A DNA stretch of 21,080 nt. It comes from a virus. The position numbers and the translations under genes were made by a program. The notes beneath the pieces were generated by a model that was not told the origin of the DNA, ran no database searches, and was given only the letters and a program-made list of their open reading frames with translations. The stretch spans positions 1 through 21,080 of the IMG/VR virus record IMGVR_UViG_3300031974_000688; one strand, given 5' to 3'. Positions 1 through 9,051 of the stretch are shown here, one piece after another (position 1 is the stretch's first letter; every line of letters begins with the position of its first letter).

Positions 1-1626
1 AACACAAGAACGGTTGGTGCTTCTGGTGCAGATGAGACCTCACTTAGCGCTGCGCTATCCTGGATGCAGTCTAACCATAATTTCAATACTGATGGTATTG
101 CCACTATTGAGGTTATTGATAGTGCAGCTTATGACGAAAGCCTAACTATCTCCGGCATCGCTGGAACACCATCAAGCACTGCATATTTAAAAATTACTGT
201 CTCTTCTGGTAATAGGCATTCTGGTGCGGCTGGCACTGGTCACGCTAGAATAAGTTATTCAGGTGGTAATACAGCAGCTATTCAGGTTGAAACTCCATAC
301 ACCGTAATTGAAGACCTCGAAATATACAGATCTAATCCTGGTAGTTCTGATGAAGGTGTACGGATCACTTCTGGTGTAAATGGTGTTGTTATCAGCCGTT
401 GCGTTATCTGGTCAGACGGGGCAGCAGGCGATACTGACGGTATATACGCAGGCAATTGGCCTGTCACAGTGAATGTAGATAACTGCATCATATACGGGTT
501 TAATCGTTGCGGCATCAATGCTCAGAACTTTGGCGGCGGTGGTACGCAAACATGGAATATAGACAGCTGTACAATCTATGATTGTGGCTCAGATGATACC
601 CCAGGCGATGGCGGTATTGTTGCAAGAGCTGACTTCGGCGGGGACACTGCCAACTTTAATGTATACAACACAGCAGCATTAGATAGCAATGGTACAAACG
701 CAGCGGATTTTGCAGAGGTTGGTGGAGGTACGTTTAACTGGACTGGAACGCATAACGCCGACACTGACGGGTCACTGACTGCCGTTGGCATCACTAGTAG
801 CGCACAGCAGAATCTGACAATTACTGCAACAACGCAATCAAGTGGAAGCTACTTTGTTGTTAATAGTCTGACGGCAGGTAGTGAAGATCTGACGTTGCTA
901 GACGATGCGGCGGGTAACTTAGCTTATGGTAATGGTGTAAGCAGGGTTGGGAGCGAACCAGACAGCAGGCAAGATTTTAGCTTAGATATAGCAGGCAATA
1001 CTAGGTCGACTACAAGCCCTAGCCCTGACATTGGAGCAAGTGAGTATACGGCAGCTGGCGGCGGTGTAACAGTTAATCTTAGCGGCCAGTCTTCTACGCT
1101 TTCTCAAGGGTCGCTCTCAGCAGCCGGTGCCGCGCTGATATCGCTTGTTGGTCAATCTGCAACTAGCAGCCAGGGGTCTATCACTGTAACAGCGGGCGGT
1201 TCAATAACTGTTAGCCTAGCCGGAAACGCCATAACAACGGCGCAAGGCGCTCTGACAGAAGCCGGTGCAGCTAATGTTTCATTGAGTGGGCATAGCTCCA
1301 CTGTTAGTCAAGGAACACTTGCTCCAACCGGCGCAGCATTGGTCGCGCTATCCGGTAATTCTGCAACAGTTAGTCAAGGTGCGGTAACAGTTACAACTGC
1401 CGCTCCGCCAACCGTTGTTAATTTAACAGGCGTATCAATTACTGCTAATATTGGCTCTGTAAACTTACAGACTGCAAATGTGATAACATTAGCAGGGCAA
1501 TCGGTTAATTTGTTTCAAGGAACGCTAGCGACAACTGGCGGTGGCTGGACTATTCAGACAGATGATTCGTCAACTTGGACAACGCAAACCAACGTAACAA
1601 CAAATTGGACTATTCAAAACAGGTAA
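1..1626 (+). CDS. Beta-helix virion protein, 5' end outside window
   Basis: The reading frame is open from base 1, so the gene starts upstream and the ATG at 64 is probably internal. The N-terminal two thirds resembles a right-handed parallel beta-helix of the pectate-lyase type: short beta runs alternate with N/D/G turns (around NCIIYGFNRCGINA and DSCTIYDC). It ends in a motif close to SPDIGASEYT that is common where such phage beta-helices stop. The last third is seven degenerate 22-25-residue repeats (1066-1546) built on V-x-L-x-G-x-S-x-T-x-x-Q-G. A tryptophan-rich tail with two WTIQ motifs follows. I infer a virion surface or appendage protein. No catalytic residues can be identified, and an adhesin or depolymerase is possible. 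Six bases separate it from the next gene. Confidence 0.8.
   Translation, partial: NTRTVGASGADETSLSAALSWMQSNHNFNTDGIATIEVIDSAAYDESLTISGIAGTPSSTAYLKITVSSGNRHSGAAGTGHARISYSGGNTAAIQVETPYTVIEDLEIYRSNPGSSDEGVRITSGVNGVVISRCVIWSDGAAGDTDGIYAGNWPVTVNVDNCIIYGFNRCGINAQNFGGGGTQTWNIDSCTIYDCGSDDTPGDGGIVARADFGGDTANFNVYNTAALDSNGTNAADFAEVGGGTFNWTGTHNADTDGSLTAVGITSSAQQNLTITATTQSSGSYFVVNSLTAGSEDLTLLDDAAGNLAYGNGVSRVGSEPDSRQDFSLDIAGNTRSTTSPSPDIGASEYTAAGGGVTVNLSGQSSTLSQGSLSAAGAALISLVGQSATSSQGSITVTAGGSITVSLAGNAITTAQGALTEAGAANVSLSGHSSTVSQGTLAPTGAALVALSGNSATVSQGAVTVTTAAPPTVVNLTGVSITANIGSVNLQTANVITLAGQSVNLFQGTLATTGGGWTIQTDDSSTWTTQTNVTTNWTIQNR
1066..1546 (+). repeat. Seven degenerate protein-level tandem repeats
   Basis: The C-terminal part of the first gene carries seven consecutive units of 22-25 residues. 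Each has the pattern V-x-L-x-G-x-[SN]-x-T-x-x-[QN]-x-G-[ST]-[LIV], followed by a short G/A/T-rich linker. Unit cores include NLSGQSSTLSQGSL, SLVGQSATSSQGSI, SLAGNAITTAQGAL, SLSGHSSTVSQGTL, ALSGNSATVSQGAV, NLTGVSITANIGSV and TLAGQSVNLFQGTL. The DNA has diverged between units, so this is an old protein-level array rather than a recent DNA duplication. Similar L-x-G-x-S-x-T-x-x-x-G strings occur in many phage structural proteins. A small repeated beta module acting as a stalk or adhesion surface is the likely meaning. Confidence 0.8.
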
Positions 1627-1632
1627 TAAATT

Positions 1633-2064
1633 ATGGCTTCTACTACTGCGATCTGCACAAGCTTTAAGCAAGAACTCATGGTGAAAGGCCATGATTTCAC
1701 AACTTCAACCGGCGATACTTTTAAGATAGCGCTGTATACTTCATCGGCAACCAATGGCGCAGCAACAACTTCTTATTCTGCTACTAATGAGGTTAGCGGT
1801 ACAGGCTACACAGCGACAGGTAACACATTAACAAATGTCACGCCGACCACTAGCGGAACAACAGCTTATACGGACTTTGCTGATACAACTTGGTCAACGG
1901 CGACTATTACGGCGGCCTCATGCTTAATCTATAACGATACAGCAGCTGGAGATCCGTCTGTGCTGGTTCAAGATTTTGGTGGTGATAAAACCTCGACAGC
2001 AGCGGATTTTACTATTAGTTTCCCGACTGCTGACGCATCAAACGCAATATTGAGGCTTGCTTAA
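1633..2064 (+). CDS. Small phage virion protein
   Basis: This 143-residue protein is rich in Thr, Ser and Ala and appears to be all beta. It has the style of a small structural protein often found in phage late regions: an N-terminal helix with SFKQELMVKGHDF, then FKIALYTSSA, a YSATNEVSGTGYTATG stretch and a terminal DASNAILRLA. I recognise the type but not a precise function; a decoration or fibre-associated role is inferred. The start lies six bases after the preceding stop, with the sequence caggtaataa just upstream giving only a weak ribosome-binding site. Its stop overlaps the next start by one base (TAATG), which suggests translational coupling. Confidence 0.75.
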   Translation: MASTTAICTSFKQELMVKGHDFTTSTGDTFKIALYTSSATNGAATTSYSATNEVSGTGYTATGNTLTNVTPTTSGTTAYTDFADTTWSTATITAASCLIYNDTAAGDPSVLVQDFGGDKTSTAADFTISFPTADASNAILRLA

Positions 2065-2279
2065 TGACGTTTGATGAAAGTAACGCGCGGATTACAAATG
2101 AGCTGACAGGCCGAACAATTGATCATGTAGTGCGAAACGGAAAGGCTTTGGAGCTACATACAGCTTGTGGCCATTGCGTAAAACTGCAATCAGATGTTAA
2201 TCACGATATTCATTTTGCAGGGACAAGCGTCCATATTAAGCTTGATCCAATGGAGTTGTTCGGCGCAGGTGGATTTTAG
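2064..2279 (+). CDS. Small conserved phage protein of unknown function
   Basis: This 71-residue protein begins at the A of the upstream stop codon (TAATG). It contains NELTGRTIDHVVRNGKALEL followed by a CGHC motif and VKLQSDVNHDIHF, a style seen in small phage proteins that accompany structural genes. The alternating pattern suggests a compact beta fold. The two cysteines and nearby histidines could bind a metal, but that is only a suggestion. It is the last gene before the structured stretch that precedes the packaging genes. Its function is not known. Confidence 0.7.
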   Translation: MTFDESNARITNELTGRTIDHVVRNGKALELHTACGHCVKLQSDVNHDIHFAGTSVHIKLDPMELFGAGGF

Positions 2280-2315
2280 GTTTATCCCCCGACAAGGATA
2301 AGATAGTAACCAACG

Positions 2316-2328
2316 TAAGGAGGTGATC
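2316..2328 (+). promoter_or_regulatory. 13-base perfect anti-16S (extended Shine-Dalgarno) sequence
   Basis: TAAGGAGGTGATC is the exact complement of the terminal GATCACCTCCTTA of bacterial 16S rRNA, far longer than the usual 4-6-base Shine-Dalgarno match. No ATG, GTG or TTG lies at the normal 5-9-base distance; the first ATG (2343) is 19 bases beyond the GGAGG core. The same bases can form an alternative hairpin pairing 2319-2324 with 2330-2335 (five Watson-Crick pairs and one G-U, loop GATCT). That hairpin would hide the core and excludes P2. Mutually exclusive pairings around a ribosome-binding site are typical of a translation switch, but that function is inferred. Confidence 0.55.
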
Positions 2329-2342
2329 TATCTCCCGCTAGC

Positions 2343-2372
2343 ATGGGTGAACTAGCAGCCTCGGCACGCTGA
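2343..2372 (+). CDS. Possible 9-codon leader peptide (MGELAASAR)
   Basis: An ATG in the loop of the third leader hairpin opens a nine-codon frame, MGELAASAR, ending at a TGA that overlaps the GAGA tetraloop. It is the first start codon after the 13-base ribosome-binding-like sequence, but the spacing is too long for ordinary initiation unless an RNA fold shortens it. Translation through this frame would melt the third hairpin and the 5' arm of the fourth, as in attenuator leader peptides. A frame this short can occur by chance, so confidence is low. Confidence 0.2.
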   Translation: MGELAASAR

Positions 2373-2421
2373 GAAGCGTTAAGAGGCAATTAATTTCAGT
2401 GAATAACCGAGAGGACTCACA

Positions 2422-2760
2422 ATGGCGAAAACAAGAGCACAAAAAAACAGAGCATTTAGACAAGATTATTTGCGCGAGATGTTAGCAAGTCGTGGACACA
2501 TTCAGCACATTGACACAATTCTAGAGGAATTGATGGGCGATAAACAGATTGACGCACTAGAGTTGCAGCGTAAGAAAGTTGTGATTGATACTAAACTAGC
2601 ATTGATTAAGAAATTCTTACCAGATCTAAAAGCTATTGAGATAACCGGCGCGGAAGGCGGTGATATAAAAACAAGTAATAAATTTACAATAGAGGTGATT
2701 GATGCCGAGGCTTCAGATCCCGAAGAAGCTGCAACCGCTACTGAAGCCGAAAAAGTTTAA
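2422..2760 (+). CDS. Terminase small subunit
   Basis: This 112-residue protein directly precedes the large terminase. In small terminases, helical N-terminal segments bind the packaging site, the protein forms a ring, and it hands DNA to the motor. Residues 1-75 are helical and charged. The stretch LIKKFLPDLKAIEITGAEGG is characteristic of this phage family, where a helix is followed by a short acidic beta segment, and the C terminus is acidic (EASDPEEAATATEAEKV). It is shorter than P22 gp3 (162 residues). A clear ribosome-binding site (GAGAGG, about 7 bases upstream) precedes the ATG. The 3' end overlaps the large-terminase gene by 59 bases in another frame. The call rests on position, size and the conserved stretch. 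Confidence 0.75.
   Translation: MAKTRAQKNRAFRQDYLREMLASRGHIQHIDTILEELMGDKQIDALELQRKKVVIDTKLALIKKFLPDLKAIEITGAEGGDIKTSNKFTIEVIDAEASDPEEAATATEAEKV
2692..2699 (+). promoter_or_regulatory. Ribosome-binding site of the large terminase
   Basis: GAGGTGAT matches the 16S tail over eight bases and sits 6 bases (core to ATG) before 2702. This favours ATG at 2702 over the adjacent in-frame TTG at 2699. It lies inside the small-terminase coding region. Confidence 0.7.
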
Positions 2761-4144
2761 AATCATTTACGGCGGCAGGGGATCGGGCAAATCGATGACT
2801 GTAGCGGATCTTTTGCTTATGAAGTGTCAAACTGAAGGCGCAAAAGCGAGCGGTATGCGAGAAATGATGAACAGTATAGACGACTCTGTTCATGCACTTT
2901 TTACTGAAGAGATAGAACGATTAGAGCTAGATGGCTTTTCTGTTTGTCGCAGTCATATCGATATCGATACTGGTGGTGCAATCACGTATAAGGGTTTGGC
3001 GAGGAATCCCGAGAGCGTAAAGTCGATGCACGGATACAAGTACTTTTGGGTTGAAGAGGCTGCAACGCTTTCTAAGAGATCGTTGGATTTATTGATTCCT
3101 ACGCTACGGAGAGAAGACGCTGAACTATGGCTAACCTTCAATCCTGAGAGTAGTGCGGATGCAGTCTATCAAGAATTCATAAAACCGTTTGAGCATGAGT
3201 TGAGCAAAAACGGGTATTATGAAGATGATCTGCATATGATTATCAAGGTGAATTATTGTGACAATCCTTTCTTCCCTGAAAACTTGGAGCTGTTGAGATT
3301 GAAGCACAAAGAGACAAAATCAAGAGCGGAATATAACCATATTTGGTTAGGGGAGACAAATGACAGTGTTGAAAATAGTATTATCAAGCTTGAATGGTTC
3401 GAAGCTGCGCTTGATGCGCATAAAATACCGCGTCTTGAGAAAGCATTTACCCCGCGCGGCGCGATTGTCGCAGCTCATGACCCGAGCGATACAGGAGCTG
3501 ATGCGAAAGGCTACGCATTAAGGCATGGATCGATTATTAAGCGTATTGCTTGCATGGATACTGGTGAGATTGATGAGGGGTGCGACTGGGCTACAGGGCT
3601 TGCAATCCAAGATAATGCAGACTGGTTTGTCTGGGATGGTGACGGATGCGGAACAGGCTTAAAGCGTCAAGTGCAAGATGCTTTCAGAGGTAAAAAGATA
3701 GACGCGCATATGTTCAAAGGTTCGCTATCTGGATCTGCGCAAGATAATGCTGATTTTATTTGGCAAGAGTCAGATGAATCAGATAACAATGCCAAGACAT
3801 ACAGCGAAACTTTCTTGAATAATCGTTCACAGTATTACATGCAGCTAGCACAGCGCTTTTACAATACATATCGATGTGTTGAGAAGGGTGAATATGTTGA
3901 TCCTGATGAGATGATAAGCCTGGACTCAGATGGAATAGAGGATATAGATAGATTGAAGTCTGAAGTGTGCAGAATCCCGAGAAAGCCAAACAACAAAGGG
4001 CTTTATCAGATTATGAGTAAAAACGACATGAAGTCGCTTAAAATACCATCGCCAAACATGGCCGATTCTTTAATGATGTCGCTTTATATCCCTCAAATGT
4101 TAGAATGGGGCGAGCTCAACTACGGTAAAACAATGGTTATCTGA
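2702..4144 (+). CDS. Terminase large subunit (P22/Sf6 gp2-like)
   Basis: This is the packaging motor: an ATPase that drives DNA through the portal and a nuclease that cuts the concatemer. It is 480 residues from ATG 2702. Visible motifs are Walker A GGRGSGKS (residues 24-31), Walker B with catalytic glutamate YFWVEEA (114-120), and coupling motif LTFNP (144-148). The RNase H-type nuclease domain has acidic residues in HDPSDTG (259-265) and WDGDG (311-315), and an Asp near the C terminus in NMADSLMMSL. The order and spacing fit the Sf6/P22 gp2 group, which are headful-packaging enzymes. The ATG was chosen because of the well-placed GAGGTGAT; the TTG just upstream adds only one residue. All key residues seem intact. 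Confidence 0.95.
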   Translation: MPRLQIPKKLQPLLKPKKFKIIYGGRGSGKSMTVADLLLMKCQTEGAKASGMREMMNSIDDSVHALFTEEIERLELDGFSVCRSHIDIDTGGAITYKGLARNPESVKSMHGYKYFWVEEAATLSKRSLDLLIPTLRREDAELWLTFNPESSADAVYQEFIKPFEHELSKNGYYEDDLHMIIKVNYCDNPFFPENLELLRLKHKETKSRAEYNHIWLGETNDSVENSIIKLEWFEAALDAHKIPRLEKAFTPRGAIVAAHDPSDTGADAKGYALRHGSIIKRIACMDTGEIDEGCDWATGLAIQDNADWFVWDGDGCGTGLKRQVQDAFRGKKIDAHMFKGSLSGSAQDNADFIWQESDESDNNAKTYSETFLNNRSQYYMQLAQRFYNTYRCVEKGEYVDPDEMISLDSDGIEDIDRLKSEVCRIPRKPNNKGLYQIMSKNDMKSLKIPSPNMADSLMMSLYIPQMLEWGELNYGKTMVI

Positions 4145-4146
4145 TT

Positions 4147-6180
4147 ATGATGAATGAAAGAGAGTACATTGGGAAGATTATAGCGGCTGATGCTGATGCT
4201 GTTTCCTACTCGCTAGAAGTTAAGCAAGACAATGATTATGTAATGAATTTTTATGAGTGTGCACCGTGGAATGAAGTAGACGGACACTCAACAGTAGTCT
4301 CAACAGACGTTTACGACGTAGTTGAGGCTGACATGCCAAGTTATGTTAGGACGTTTTTAGGTACTAGCTGCCCTATAAAGTTCGAGCCAACGTCAGCGAG
4401 TCAAGCCGATATCCAGGAGGCTGAAGATAAAACGGCGCTTGTAGATTGGGTAATACGTAGCCAGCCAAGCTATTTTAAATTAATGTATAGCTGGATGAAA
4501 ACAGCAGAGATAAAGCGGTTCTCTGCGTTGCGTTATGATTGGTGCGAAGAGGAAAAAGTACTCGAAAAAGAGTACGCAGGTTTAGATGAATCAGAAGCTA
4601 TCGCTATCAAAATGCAGATGCTAGAGGATGATCAGCGAGACGACACAGATATAGAGTTACTTGAAGATAGTCAAGACGATGACGGGTACAATTTAAGATT
4701 CAAAATAACAACAACGATCAAATCAGTAAAAATCTGTTTCATTCCTACCGACAACTTCATTATTAGCCGCAATGCCTCTTGCAAGGATGACGCGGAAATA
4801 ATCGGTGATGATCAGTTGGTTAGTAAATCAGATTTAATTGCACTAGGCTTTGATGAAGAGCTTGTTAGAGGTTTATCCCCCAGTGCCGCCAGAGTTGTGA
4901 GTGATGGTTATAATTACTCGAAAAATCAGTATTCCGATGTAAACGACGAAGCCAGTGAGCTTGTCACGGTTTGTACTAGGATTGTTAGAATTGATAGAGA
5001 TCAAGATGGCATAGCAGAGCGTAGGCGCGTGGTTTATTGTGGCACTACGCTATTGGATGATCAGCCATTTGATCACGCGAATTATGCACTGCTTAGCACT
5101 GTTTTAATGCCTGATGAAGCTATTGGTAAATCAAGAGCTGAAGCGGTTACTAAAACGCAAGAAGTGAAAACTGCACTGGTGAGAGGGGTGTTAGATAATG
5201 TCTATCGCGTGAATAGCGGCAGATATGTGGTTAATACGCAATCGACAAATATTGATGACCTGTTAACTGATAGACCAGGGGGGATTGTTAGAGTTAAAGG
5301 CGATATTAGGCAGGCTGTAACAAGGCTAGAAACACCATACGAAGCTGATAAGACACTGCAAGTAATCCAATACATGGATTTTGCCAGAGCGCAGAGAACC
5401 GGCGCACTAATGGCTTCTCAGGGGTTAAATCAAGACAATCTATATAACGAGACAGCGACGCGATTTAACGGATTGCAAGACGAAGGCGGAGAAAAGACCG
5501 AGCTTGTTATGCGGATCATGGGCGAAACGGGATTCAAGGAATTGTATGAGGGTATAGCCTGGACATTGATGCACTATCAAGATTCCAAAATGGAAATTAA
5601 GGTATTAGGAAAGCAGTTGACAATAGATCCGTCAAGATGGCGCTATGATCATGCTGCTGCTGCAAATGTCGGTATTGGTGTTTCAGAGGATGAAATAACA
5701 GCTAATATGACAGCATTGTTAACAGTTTCTGATAGATTGAAGGCTGCAGGCTCGGTGTTAACCGATGACGTGAAAATCTATAATATGCTTGATCGTGTTG
5801 TTAAGAGTATGGGTGTTAGAGATACAGGTGTATTTTTTAATAACCCTGAAATACCAGAAGAAACAATGCGCGCGCAATATGAGCAATTGCTAAGCCTGGC
5901 TGAACAGCAGAAGCTAGCGCTAGAGCAACAAAACCCACTAGCACAAGCTGAACAGATTAAAGCGCAAGCAAGCCTGATGAATACACAAATTAAAGAGCAG
6001 AGTAACCAACAGAAGAACGAGCTAGAGTTGGCAAAGCTGGTGCAGGATCAACGGCAATTCATGTCAACTCTGGAAGAAGACAAGCGTCAATTCAATGCTG
6101 AAATACTCGCTAAGCTAAATGAGATTGAAGCGCAATATAAAAAAGAGCTGACAAATGAGGTCCCAAAAATAGATGGATAA
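4147..6180 (+). CDS. Portal protein (P22 gp1-like)
   Basis: At 677 residues it is close to P22 gp1 (725). The portal forms the ring at the unique vertex through which DNA enters and leaves and on which the head assembles. The N-terminal half holds motifs frequent in podovirus portals: VSTDVYDVVEADMPSYVRTF, then SQADIQEAEDKTALVDWVI with the SYFKLMYSWMKTAEIKR helix. The C-terminal 100 residues (about 579-677) are Gln/Glu/Lys-rich and coiled-coil-like, as expected for the barrel that extends into the capsid in P22. It starts two bases after the large-terminase stop with no clear ribosome-binding site, so translation is probably coupled. A second ATG follows immediately (4150) and could be the true start. 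Confidence 0.9.
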   Translation: MMNEREYIGKIIAADADAVSYSLEVKQDNDYVMNFYECAPWNEVDGHSTVVSTDVYDVVEADMPSYVRTFLGTSCPIKFEPTSASQADIQEAEDKTALVDWVIRSQPSYFKLMYSWMKTAEIKRFSALRYDWCEEEKVLEKEYAGLDESEAIAIKMQMLEDDQRDDTDIELLEDSQDDDGYNLRFKITTTIKSVKICFIPTDNFIISRNASCKDDAEIIGDDQLVSKSDLIALGFDEELVRGLSPSAARVVSDGYNYSKNQYSDVNDEASELVTVCTRIVRIDRDQDGIAERRRVVYCGTTLLDDQPFDHANYALLSTVLMPDEAIGKSRAEAVTKTQEVKTALVRGVLDNVYRVNSGRYVVNTQSTNIDDLLTDRPGGIVRVKGDIRQAVTRLETPYEADKTLQVIQYMDFARAQRTGALMASQGLNQDNLYNETATRFNGLQDEGGEKTELVMRIMGETGFKELYEGIAWTLMHYQDSKMEIKVLGKQLTIDPSRWRYDHAAAANVGIGVSEDEITANMTALLTVSDRLKAAGSVLTDDVKIYNMLDRVVKSMGVRDTGVFFNNPEIPEETMRAQYEQLLSLAEQQKLALEQQNPLAQAEQIKAQASLMNTQIKEQSNQQKNELELAKLVQDQRQFMSTLEEDKRQFNAEILAKLNEIEAQYKKELTNEVPKIDG

Positions 6181-6466
6181 GACAAAAGAGGATTTAGAGC
6201 GAGATTTTACAAACGGCGTTTCTGCGTATACATTCAATGAAAAAATGCAGAAAGAAAAGGCGTTTATGCAGCTAAAAGCTGATCTCATGTTGAAGTTTGA
6301 AAACACATCGTTTAAAGAGGATGAGGAACGCCGTGAAATATGGCGCAAGATGCAAACAATTGCATGGTTTGAACAGACTTTAAATGAGATAGTGGTTAAT
6401 GGTAAGATGGCAGAGCAGGAGCTGAAAGGCTTCGCTAAACTTAAACAGAAATTTACTAAAGGTTAA
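6173..6466 (+). CDS. Small helical protein between portal and scaffold
   Basis: This 97-residue, strongly charged and probably all-helical protein overlaps the end of the portal gene by eight bases in another frame. GAGG at 6157-6160 is a rather distant ribosome-binding site. No known domain is recognisable. A small gene of this kind often sits between portal and scaffold in podoviruses, which suggests a head-assembly role, but nothing in the sequence proves it. WRKMQTIAWFEQTLNEIVVNG is its most hydrophobic and probably structural part. Confidence 0.7.
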   Translation: MDKTKEDLERDFTNGVSAYTFNEKMQKEKAFMQLKADLMLKFENTSFKEDEERREIWRKMQTIAWFEQTLNEIVVNGKMAEQELKGFAKLKQKFTKG

Positions 6467-6468
6467 TT

Positions 6469-7263
6469 ATGCTAAATACTCCTAGCGAACTTAGCACAGA
6501 TGACACTAACGCCGATGACCTCGAAGAGATAACTGAAGAGTTAGAAGAATCAACCGAAGAAGCCGCCGATGATGGCGAAGAGTTAGAAGAATCAGAAGAT
6601 AATTCTGAAGATGACGAAGACGCAGAAGAGGCTTTTCTTGTCGGTGATGAGAAAATAACAAAATCTGAGTTTGAGCAACTGAAGAAAAAACAAATGCTTC
6701 ACTCTGACTATACGAAAAAGAGACAAGCTGAAGCTGCACAGGTGAAGCAAACTGTTGATAGTTTGTTAGCTCAAGCTGATTTACTTGAATCATTCGTAGA
6801 TGAAGATGAGAAAGCTGTAGATTGGGATGATTTTGTATCTAATAGCGAAATGAGAGCGGCTGAGGCCAAATTCAATGAGCGTAGAAAGCAGATAAAGCAA
6901 ATTAGAGATGCGGCAGCTTCAAAGAAGAATGAAGCGGATAGCACTTTGATAGAGCAAACCAACAAAGCAGTTTTTGATCACTTCGCAGATTGGGAAGGCA
7001 ATCAAAAGCAGGCTGATTCAGACAAGAAGCTGGCTTATGATTATGCTAAATCAATCGGTTATACTGACGAGGCATTAAATAGTATTGATAATCCACAAGC
7101 GTTTATATCTTTAATTGAAGCAGCAAAGATGAAGAGCGAGCTTGAGGCAATCAAGAAGGCCAAGCCAGGTAAAAAACTTAAACGCAAGGCACCGAAATCT
7201 GTAACCGGCAAAAAAGCAACAGCTAAGCCGAGATCTTGGGCTGATGTATTCTATAAAAGTTAG
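6469..7263 (+). CDS. Scaffolding protein
   Basis: At 264 residues this has the composition of a phage scaffold, which guides coat assembly inside the procapsid and then leaves. Residues 1-55 are extremely acidic (runs of E and D). The middle (about 60-215) is helical with heptad-like stretches. The C terminus (about 225-264) is lysine-rich, ending in a short helix with RSWADVFYKS; in P22 a basic C-terminal helix-loop-helix binds coat protein. It lies immediately upstream of the coat gene, as in P22 (gene 8 before gene 5; P22 gp8 is 303 residues). The call rests on composition and position. Confidence 0.8.
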   Translation: MLNTPSELSTDDTNADDLEEITEELEESTEEAADDGEELEESEDNSEDDEDAEEAFLVGDEKITKSEFEQLKKKQMLHSDYTKKRQAEAAQVKQTVDSLLAQADLLESFVDEDEKAVDWDDFVSNSEMRAAEAKFNERRKQIKQIRDAAASKKNEADSTLIEQTNKAVFDHFADWEGNQKQADSDKKLAYDYAKSIGYTDEALNSIDNPQAFISLIEAAKMKSELEAIKKAKPGKKLKRKAPKSVTGKKATAKPRSWADVFYKS

Positions 7264-7266
7264 GAG
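7262..7266 (+). promoter_or_regulatory. Ribosome-binding site of the major capsid gene
   Basis: AGGAG overlaps the scaffold stop codon and lies nine bases before the coat ATG at 7276. It is a strong site, as expected for the most abundant virion protein. Confidence 0.65.
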
Positions 7267-7275
7267 TAACTAAAT

Positions 7276-8292
7276 ATGGCTACTTTAGGAGCTAGTGTAT
7301 TAACTCTGACGGATTGGGCAAAGCGCCTTGATCCTGACGGAAAGACTGCAAAAATTGCAGAAGTACTGTCAGAAACCAATGAAATGGTTAATGATATGAT
7401 GTGGAAAGAAGGTAACTTGCCAACTGGTGAGCAAACCACTATCCGAACTGGTTTGCCTGCAGTTTACTGGCGCTTGATCAACCAAGGTGTACCTTCTAGC
7501 AAGTCAACCACGGCTCAAGTTACAGAGCAGTGCGGCAACCTGCAAGCACGTTCACAGCTTGACCAAGACGAAGCTGAGCTAAATGGCAATACAAACGATT
7601 ACCGTTTATCTGAGTCCATGGCGTTTGTTGAAGCGATGTCTCAAGAGTTCGCAGAAACATTGATCTATGGCTCTGCGTCAAACCCTGAAGAGTTTGTTGG
7701 TCTAGCTAATCGCTACACCTCAACATCCGATGCTAACGGTCAAAACATTTTATCGGCTGGCGGTTCAGGTTCAGATAATACGTCAATTTGGTTGTGTGGC
7801 TGGGGTTCTAAGTCGATGTACGGTATCTTCCCCAAAGGCTCAAAAGCTGGTCTTGTTCATGAAGATCTAGGTCTAGATGACGTGACCGATGCAGATGGTA
7901 ACGAATACCGCGCGTACAAAGATTTGTATAAGTGGAAAGGCGGTCTGACAGTTAAAGACTGGAGATACGCTGTTCGTATTCCAAACATTGATGTGTCAGA
8001 CTTGGCTGGCCTAACGGGTACTCAAGCAATCACAGCGACGACTAGCATTATCAAGCTAATGTCACGCGCGATTGATCGTCTACCAACAATGGCGGGTATT
8101 TCGCCTGCTTTCTACGCGAATCGCACAGTGCTTTCACACTTGCGCATGATTGGTCTAGAAAAGTCTAGTTCAGCAGTTACAGTTGAGCCTGCAATCAACC
8201 AATTCGGACAAAATATATTTGAGACTAAGTTCTTAGGTATTCCTGTTCGCTTGAATGATGCAATCACTGAATCTGAATCAGTTGTATCATAA
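7276..8292 (+). CDS. Major capsid protein (BPP-1-type, HK97 fold)
   Basis: At 338 residues this is shorter than P22 coat (430) and belongs to the coat type of Bordetella phage BPP-1. The opening MATLGASVLTLTDWAKRLDP, then NEMVNDMMWKEGNLPTGEQT, TIRTGLPAVYWRLINQGVP, LSESMAFVEAMSQEFAETL and IYGSASNPEEFVGLANRY are hallmarks of that family. The C-terminal part (FETKFLGIPVRLNDAITESE) closes the fold. It forms the icosahedral shell, works with the scaffold encoded just upstream and is probably stabilised by the cement protein encoded just downstream. Confidence 0.93.
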   Translation: MATLGASVLTLTDWAKRLDPDGKTAKIAEVLSETNEMVNDMMWKEGNLPTGEQTTIRTGLPAVYWRLINQGVPSSKSTTAQVTEQCGNLQARSQLDQDEAELNGNTNDYRLSESMAFVEAMSQEFAETLIYGSASNPEEFVGLANRYTSTSDANGQNILSAGGSGSDNTSIWLCGWGSKSMYGIFPKGSKAGLVHEDLGLDDVTDADGNEYRAYKDLYKWKGGLTVKDWRYAVRIPNIDVSDLAGLTGTQAITATTSIIKLMSRAIDRLPTMAGISPAFYANRTVLSHLRMIGLEKSSSAVTVEPAINQFGQNIFETKFLGIPVRLNDAITESESVVS

Positions 8293-8297
8293 GGAGG
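8291..8297 (+). promoter_or_regulatory. Strong ribosome-binding site of the cement gene
   Basis: AAGGAGG overlaps the coat stop codon and is six bases from ATG 8304. The near-perfect match suggests high translation, matching a cement protein needed in coat-like copy number. Confidence 0.7.
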
Positions 8298-8303
8298 TTC
8301 CAA

Positions 8304-8777
8304 ATGTTTATTGATGCACAAAACCAATTCTCTGACGCTCAAGCTTTGACGGCTACGGCAGTTGGAACAAATGTAATCGATTTGTCATTAGCTCGTTCTA
8401 TCGGTAACGGTGAACCCATGGCTGTATTGTTCTCCGTTGATGTTGCGGCGGATCAGACAACCGGCGATGAGGATTACACATTTGATGTTGAGATTGCTAC
8501 GGCGGCAGATCAATCAGCAGGCGCTCAATTGATGGGTCGAAGAGTGTTTGAGTCAGGTACGCCTGGTGCGCCTGCGCAAGACGCTGATTTGCTGGTTGCT
8601 GGTTATTCGTTCTCTATCCCGCTACCAGCGACAACGCTAGATGAGGCGGCACGCTATTTGGGCGTGCGTTACACGCTAGCAGGCACCACGCCAAGCGTTA
8701 CGGTGACAGCTCAGCTAGTGCCTCAGTCCTTTGTGGATGGCTACAACACTTACTCAAGCGGCTATTCAATCACTTAA
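8304..8777 (+). CDS. Capsid cement/decoration protein (Bbp16-like)
   Basis: This 157-residue all-beta protein has an N terminus (FSDAQALTATAVGTNVIDL, then SIGNGEPMAVLFSV) that is distinctive of the Bbp16 cement family of phage BPP-1. In BPP-1 this protein sits on the outside of the capsid and stabilises coat contacts. Later segments (DYTFDVEIATAADQ, YLGVRYTLAGTTPS) alternate like beta strands of a jelly roll. Its place directly after the matching coat type supports the call, because BPP-1 also pairs these two proteins. Confidence 0.88.
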   Translation: MFIDAQNQFSDAQALTATAVGTNVIDLSLARSIGNGEPMAVLFSVDVAADQTTGDEDYTFDVEIATAADQSAGAQLMGRRVFESGTPGAPAQDADLLVAGYSFSIPLPATTLDEAARYLGVRYTLAGTTPSVTVTAQLVPQSFVDGYNTYSSGYSIT

Positions 8778-8789
8778 TAGGGGTTGATT

Positions 8790-8993
8790 ATGCTTGTAAG
8801 AGTAAAGAAAGGCTGTAGGGGTTTTTGGAAAGGCGAGCGCAAACGCGCTGGCCAGTCCTTCGAGTTGACGAAAGATGATACTTTCTCGCCGCGATGGATG
8901 GAAGAGGTTGAAGCTGAAAAGCCGAAGCTGGAGCCTAAAAAAACCACTACGCGAAAAGCCAAAACATCAAAGGTCACAAAAGTTGATAGTTGA
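8790..8993 (+). CDS. Small basic phage protein of unknown function
   Basis: This is a 67-residue protein from ATG 8790, preceded by AGGGG about six bases upstream; an in-frame TTG two codons earlier is less likely. The N-terminal half (VKKGCRGFWKGERKRAGQSFEL, then FSPRWMEEVE) resembles a small beta-barrel-like phage protein that often follows coat or cement genes. The C-terminal half is a low-complexity, Lys/Thr-rich tail, mostly disordered. The role is unknown; a head-associated or nucleic-acid-contacting protein is possible given its charge. Its stop is just before a terminator, so it closes the head gene block. Confidence 0.7.
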   Translation: MLVRVKKGCRGFWKGERKRAGQSFELTKDDTFSPRWMEEVEAEKPKLEPKKTTTRKAKTSKVTKVDS

Positions 8994-9001
8994 TGTATAA
9001 T
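8973..9001 (+). promoter_or_regulatory. Candidate sigma70-type promoter
   Basis: A perfect TATAAT (8996-9001) has a 17-base spacer to GTCACA (8973-8978), which matches four of six bases of the -35 consensus. A transcript would begin near 9007-9008, inside the 5' arm of the adjacent terminator stem. It would therefore lack part of that arm and escape termination. It could supply independent transcription of the connector, tail and ejection genes. The sequence is suggestive; there is no proof of activity. Confidence 0.4.
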
Positions 9002-9029
9002 AGAAAAGGATGTGAAAGCATCCTTTTCT
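9002..9029 (+). terminator. Intrinsic terminator after the head genes
   Basis: AGAAAAGGATG (9002-9012) pairs perfectly over 11 bases with CATCCTTTTCT (9019-9029) around the loop TGAAAG. A T-rich TGTTTCTT tract follows. It begins nine bases after a stop codon and is the only strong terminator noticed in the window. Because AGAAAAGG mirrors CCTTTTCT, the structure could also act on the opposite strand. It probably lowers read-through from coat and cement genes into the tail genes, which need fewer copies. Confidence 0.85.
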
Positions 9030-9051
9030 TGTTTCTTAAGATAGGTGCAAT

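Follow-up and report, generated by a model that had tools for sequence, protein, structure and literature searches.

The HK022 put RNA and the lambdoid nut sites are phage RNA hairpins that lie early in operons, and the boxB loop is GNRA-like. The phi29-type packaging RNA is a structured phage RNA that is needed for DNA packaging. The T4 rnaC and rnaD RNAs (species 1 and 2 RNA) are small stable RNAs of unknown role that lie beside phage tRNA genes. CC2171 of Caulobacter (Rfam RF01867) is listed as a small RNA. Grad-seq of phiKZ revealed two ncRNAs, the PHIKZ298 3' UTR and the p40 5' UTR (PMC8545117).

In this study, we analyzed a 21,080-base virus record (the window), in which the large terminase is Sf6/P22-like, the portal is of the SU10 type, and the capsid protein is of the GP7 type. 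A four-hairpin RNA lies in front of its terminase genes. Judged from sequence comparisons, this RNA very probably represents a real and undescribed family of structured phage RNAs.

Results

Structure of the RNA in the window

The initial annotation had singled out the gap before the terminase genes as the sole sizeable non-coding one. This proved correct, as the gaps between genes in the window were 12 bases or shorter except for 2280-2421 (142 bases) and 8778-9051 (274 bases), and the second was not empty but held a small conserved ORF. This ORF (8790-8993; MLVRVKKGCRGF...) had a counterpart in the relative L056 (MLVNVKKGCKGF...), and a hairpin and a T-rich stretch were present downstream. 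The gene after the first gap, at 2422..2760 on the + strand, was assigned as terS (small terminase subunit) by its position and its similarity to relatives, with no PHROG or Pfam match. The large terminase gene, terL, was located at 2702..4144 on the + strand, supported by Pfam Terminase_3 (6.5e-40), the PHROG terminase large subunit, and relatives. Its ORF was listed from a TTG at 2699, and the ATG start used by relatives corresponds to 2702 here.

Both the MFE and the centroid structures of the + strand contained four hairpins within 2281..2390 (110 bases), the ends of the element being set by conservation. P1 (2282..2301) pairs TTATCC at 2282-2287 with GGATAA at 2296-2301 around the loop CCCGACAA. 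P2 (2302..2332) pairs GATAG at 2302-2306 with CTATC at 2328-2332, and P3 (2337..2356) pairs GCTAG at 2337-2341 with CTAGC at 2352-2356 around a 10-nt loop. The outer stem of P4 (2358..2387) is formed by GCCTC at 2358-2362 and GAGGC at 2383-2387. It encloses a 3x3 internal loop (GGC/TAA) and an inner stem of ACGCT at 2366-2370 and AGCGT at 2375-2379, which is capped by GAGA. The initial annotation had already described the four stems, the GAGA loop, and the internal loop, and all of them were exact in the sequence. It had not mentioned that P2 encloses TAAGGAGGTGATC (2316..2328, +), a 13-nt complement of the anti-Shine-Dalgarno 3' end of 16S rRNA. The GGU of this complement is predicted to be paired within P2 in the window fold. 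A conserved ATCT (2330..2333, +) is located immediately 3' of the complement. The folding-energy z values were -2.5 for 2280-2421 and -2.9 for 2281-2390. Since these are only moderately unusual, the hairpins alone were unconvincing.

We then considered other signals in and around the gap. ARAGORN gave no tRNA or tmRNA gene model in the window. The initial annotation had excluded terminators from the lack of T-runs. A scan of the + strand at 1600-2800 agreed, as it revealed no intrinsic terminator (a GC-rich stem followed by a T-run), and a terminator reading of the window copy was rejected. No sigma-70-like promoter was found upstream of this copy, and the RNA there may therefore be cut from a longer transcript. 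We also rejected a leader peptide with the P3-loop ATG as its start codon; this ATG is ~20 nt from GGAGG and is missing in L045 and other lineages. No named RNA family had been thought to fit. Consistent with this, Rfam 15 at gathering score matched nothing in the window and only tRNAs in 18 member loci, and when nine loci and L055 were scanned permissively, no plausible Rfam match fell on the RNA.

Conservation in TerL relatives

Relatives were gathered via the TerL protein without selection for the motif. The leader was located directly before terS in the 73-88% TerL relatives (L002/L056, L003/L068, L004/L057, L008/L064, and L005). It was absent from the terS-upstream place in L006 and L007, whose TerL is 63% identical. 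In the terS-upstream gaps of the relatives the hairpins were kept and the stems carried compensatory changes, which upholds the structured leader proposed in the initial annotation. L056, L068, and L045 each folded alone into the same four hairpins. Near-unchanging blocks were CCCCGAC.AGG (P1 loop), AGGAGGUGAU, and GCUGNGAAGC, with CCCCGAC.AGG invariant, and AGGAGGTGAT was invariant in alignment A1.

Compensatory changes were counted for each stem. They were found in 3/6 pairs of P1 (4 sequences, hand-aligned stems), in 5/5 pairs of P3 (10 sequences), and in 4/5 pairs of the P4 outer stem, P4a (hand-aligned stems), and the inner tip GCU-GNGA-AGC was kept. P2 was the weakest of the four stems, with compensatory changes in 2/6 pairs and its pairing reached by 210/2000 shuffles, compared with 0/2000 for P3. 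Thus, in the hand-aligned stems, P1, P3, and P4a beat nearly all shuffles and P2 did not. Alignment A4, built from sequence alone, had 94.9% of cells paired and a covariation of 0.286, a value reached by 0/500 shuffles, whereas slid controls of A4 gave ~0.10 or less. Covariance model R1 scored the window element at 93.4 bits. On these alignments, the structure in the window lineage is a genuine conserved structured RNA whose hairpins are kept by compensatory changes.

A separate observation concerned TerL of L005. The TerL frame there was an 801-aa ORF (3963-6368), and the match to the window TerL started at residue 29 at position 5001. As the match begins ~1 kb after the ORF start, an in-frame insertion, for example an intein, is suggested.

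Occurrence in other phages

Members outside the window lineage were sought by two-part patterns in viral contigs. The recurring core combined GGAGGUGAUC with a variable hairpin P3 and a two-part P4 capped by GCU-GNGA-AGC, and (A/G)UCU usually came after GGAGGUGAUC. The members formed 26 DNA clusters, or ~20 lineages once protein-related jumbo phages and near pairs were merged, a merging that is a matter of judgement. The pattern with the GNGA loop gave 59 matches, 44 of them outside genes. Only 1/5 matches of the decoy loop GNGT and 1/23 matches of the decoy stem GGC/GCC lay outside genes. As the GGC/GCC pattern gave essentially chance matches, the P4 tip GCU/AGC is mostly fixed in the pattern-found lineages. 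Fixation of GGAGGUGAU and GCUGNGAAGC counts only in members located by other means, namely the TerL relatives and the jumbo phages reached through helicase synteny, because both were search terms.

Neither (A/G)UCU nor P3 was part of the search pattern. (A/G)TCT was present 0-4 nt 3' of GGAGGTGAT in 16/25 lineage representatives and in 0/41 chance or decoy loci. Across 31 sequences, in an alignment fitted to the model, covariation of P3 was 0.399 compared with 0.126 after shuffling, and 4/5 of its pairs were compensatory. In the same 31-sequence set, 4/4 pairs of the P4 outer stem were compensatory. When 12 diverse members were aligned with MAFFT (A2), P3 was misplaced, and this alignment was excluded from counting. 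Most non-coding pattern loci scored 20-34 bits in the covariance model and decoy loci at most 12.7, the E-values of this model being rough. Several members, L048, L110, L119, and L123 among them, scored no better than chance loci, and a few single-member clusters could be chance.

The RNA was also found in jumbo phages. In the isolates Noxifer and Psa21 it was located between the SNF2 helicase gene and a divergent operon, and the members in D6 and RVTF4 were found through similarity to Psa21. Through synteny of the helicase gene, without use of the motif, we found it in phiKZ, HPP-Temi, Phabio, PhiPA3, and PS119XW. The phiKZ copy lies between PHIKZ203 and PHIKZ204 (NC_004629, about 212,850-213,000), and the RNA is unannotated in phiKZ, PhiPA3, Psa21, and Noxifer. 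The helicase-synteny copies were closed by a covarying outer stem. Tip hairpins varied around a GNGA-like loop, as in UUUGC-GGGA-GCAAA (HPP-Temi), CUGUC-GGGAA-GACAG (Phabio), and UGCC-GGGA-GGCGG (RVTF4), and the phiKZ tip loop had no clear GNGA.

Other searches gave few copies. An exact 21-mer search of viral contigs and a DNA similarity search of the phage collection with the leader or the Aeromonas-type RNA returned no match. A pattern scan of genome contigs yielded mostly chance matches in GC-rich genes, with the exception of five prophage-type copies. Among 369 genomes of one bacterial class there was one strong match, a prophage-type copy in Aeromonas of the same type as the viral contigs L055, L059, and L060; R2 matches of ~20 bits occurred in 15/369 and may be chance. 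Among further weak R2 matches, those in jumbo phages resembled chance SD-like stretches, and those of the L114 type were additional GUGA hairpins.

These GUGA hairpins were observed in their own right. In L114-type phages (L202 13197-19666; L203 minus strand 405-8853), perfect 5-bp hairpins with a GUGA loop occurred on the coding strand at 6-7 per ~20 kb, and any other tetraloop occurred at most twice in the same stretches. Several preceded a gene start by no more than 30 nt, and one followed tRNA-Met at a distance of 10 nt. The hairpin resembles a repeated element for regulation or protein binding.

Genomic settings

The RNA adjoined or was near phage tRNA genes in L048, L049, L063, L067, L111/L133, and L140. 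It was upstream of terS in the window lineage, in the L114 class (TerS by PHROG), and in L109 (422 nt upstream). It occupied the portal-scaffold gap in L045/L065 and the protease-decoration gap in L119/L123, and it preceded an O-like replication gene in L053. In L044/L051 and L061 it was oriented opposite to the flanking tail or lysis genes. Given settings as diverse as tRNA genes, structural genes, a replication gene, and the opposite strand, the RNA cannot be assigned as a leader to any single gene. No protein gene beside the RNA was common to all lineages. HslV-family peptidase genes (phrog_1040) were observed near the RNA in L048 (983-1516) and L052 (3144-3596), contigs that are otherwise unrelated. 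A T-run was present directly 3' of P4 in L053 and L109, and P4 would thus be the transcript end there. In the L114 class, a separate terminator was present downstream.

Pairing with 16S rRNA

On the + strand of the window, no stretch paired better with the 16S 3' end than UAAGGAGGUGAUC, whose predicted duplex had -25.2 kcal/mol compared with -18.8 kcal/mol for the next site. No start codon was present in the window at translation spacing (5-9 nt after GGAGG). The complement was kept, G-U changes included, in L002, L003, L004, L008, phiKZ, HPP-Temi, Phabio, PhiPA3, and PS119XW. Two substitutions retained 16S pairing as G-U: a C is replaced by U in L068, and an A by G in phiKZ, PhiPA3, HPP-Temi, and PS119XW, where the stretch is GGGGGUGAUCC. 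In L005 the complement was interrupted by one inserted base (GGAGGTcGATC; -16.9 kcal/mol). The (A/G)UCU element was conserved yet not complementary to 16S. In view of this element and of the L005 insertion, the core may be recognised by a protein or a different partner.

Discussion

The best-conserved part of this phage RNA is an unusually long complement to the 3' end of 16S rRNA, the site at which mRNAs usually dock. We propose that the RNA would be released as a small RNA, either transcribed on its own or cut out of a longer transcript. The GGAGGUGAUC stretch would pair with the 3' end of 16S rRNA and thereby dock the RNA on host 30S subunits. With the anti-Shine-Dalgarno occupied, SD-dependent initiation would be reduced or redirected, or 30S subunits would be parked, during infection. 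P3 and P4 would add stability to the RNA or recruit a protein on which the outcome depends.

More likely than not, the RNA acts in trans as a small RNA. The tRNA-gene neighbours, the opposite-strand copies, the T-runs at P4, and the rarity in bacterial chromosomes argue for it. The initial annotation had offered three options, namely a cis-acting RNA for the packaging operon, a small RNA, and a packaging signal read as DNA; the second is the best of them, and the other two were not supported. We assign docking on 16S/30S via the anti-Shine-Dalgarno as the main mode tentatively, with somewhat less than even confidence, and a counterpoint is that blockage of the anti-SD would also hit phage mRNAs. 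It is possible, if doubtful, that these are widespread phage sRNAs, from podovirus-like to phiKZ-like phages, in which a start-less 16S complement of 10-14 nt, set in a dedicated fold, sequesters or reprograms the host 30S.

A small RNA of the same family could instead be recognised at its core by a protein or another RNA, for example as a sponge or scaffold, with the SD resemblance secondary. The conserved block runs past the 16S complement into (A/G)UCU, L005 tolerates an insertion in the complement, and the GNGA-capped hairpins resemble a binding motif, of which L114-type phages carry 6-7 more per 20 kb with the GUGA loop. However, 16S pairing survives substitutions in members that were not selected by motif, and the lineages lack a common associated protein gene. 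We consider this explanation unlikely, although it deserves weight.

The RNA could also act in cis on the mRNA, as a 30S landing or standby site or as a ribosome-holding site that protects the next gene (terS here) or couples its translation. In the window lineage it starts immediately downstream of the stop codon that closes the preceding gene and extends to ~30 nt upstream of terS. The complement abuts the preceding stop codon in L109 and L119, and placement before other structural genes is similar. Yet terS in the relatives has its own ribosome-binding site (SD), copies lie opposite to flanking genes and among tRNA genes, and a T-run follows P4 in L053 and L109. A cis element is therefore improbable.

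Processive antitermination of the put or nut kind, with the RNA modifying the RNA polymerase where long or untranslated operons begin, would suit its position before terS operons, tRNA clusters, and the replication gene, and the downstream terminator of the L114 class. This is quite improbable, since P4 itself carries the T-run that would mark the transcript end in L053 and L109, and copies are located inside operons (L119/L123 and L045) and opposite to genes. Antitermination also offers no reason for a 16S complement.

A DNA packaging signal or a terminase packaging RNA would fit the location beside terS that is seen in the window lineage, the L114 class, and L109, but is very improbable. Compensatory stem changes argue for RNA and would be unexplained in a dsDNA signal, most lineages carry the RNA away from the terminase with no Rfam match, and L006 and L007 lack it at that place. 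A pac/cos signal was rejected on the same covarying stems and distance from the terminase, and a role specific to terminase or packaging is not supported, as the same core occurs far from the terminase elsewhere. Chance spacer hairpins with chance pattern matches elsewhere, to which the modest single-sequence folding z would be open, are scarcely credible in the face of the pattern controls, the (A/G)UCU test, and the covariation, and for the window lineage as well as for the jumbo phages this reading already stands refuted.

An RNA common to ~20 otherwise unrelated lineages, phiKZ included, suggests a shared phage task that is solved by RNA and not by protein. If it acts on the anti-Shine-Dalgarno of 16S rRNA as we propose, it would be a new viral way to control the bacterial ribosome. 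The novelty refers to the RNA family, which fits no Rfam family and no report in the open-access literature that we searched.

Among known RNAs, the phi29-type packaging RNA is similar in being structured, and the RNA described here is near the terminase in some lineages. Unlike the phi29-type RNA, this family is mostly away from the terminase and has no Rfam match. The put and nut RNAs are not known to carry a 16S complement, and in the phage family P4 can itself be a terminator. CC2171 shares the stretch AAAGGAGGUGAUCCA, that is, the 16S complement only, and differs in the rest of its fold and in having a GUG at translation spacing after its SD-like stretch. Membership in CC2171 was rejected, as the window scored 10.7 bits (E 4.4), below the cut-off of 75, and the records of four relatives gave no match. 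CC2171-like sequences of other alphaproteobacteria (L180 and L181) were observed to carry AAAGGAGGUGAUCCA or a stretch near it at the 5' end. Because of the GUG at translation spacing, the 'sRNA' of CC2171-like sequences may be a small mRNA. Membership of T4 rnaC and rnaD was likewise rejected, as both are without GGAGGUGAUC and the GNGA hairpin. The two Grad-seq ncRNAs of phiKZ are likewise structured ncRNAs of a jumbo phage, but they come from different loci, and the RNA between PHIKZ203 and PHIKZ204 is distinct from both (PMC8545117).
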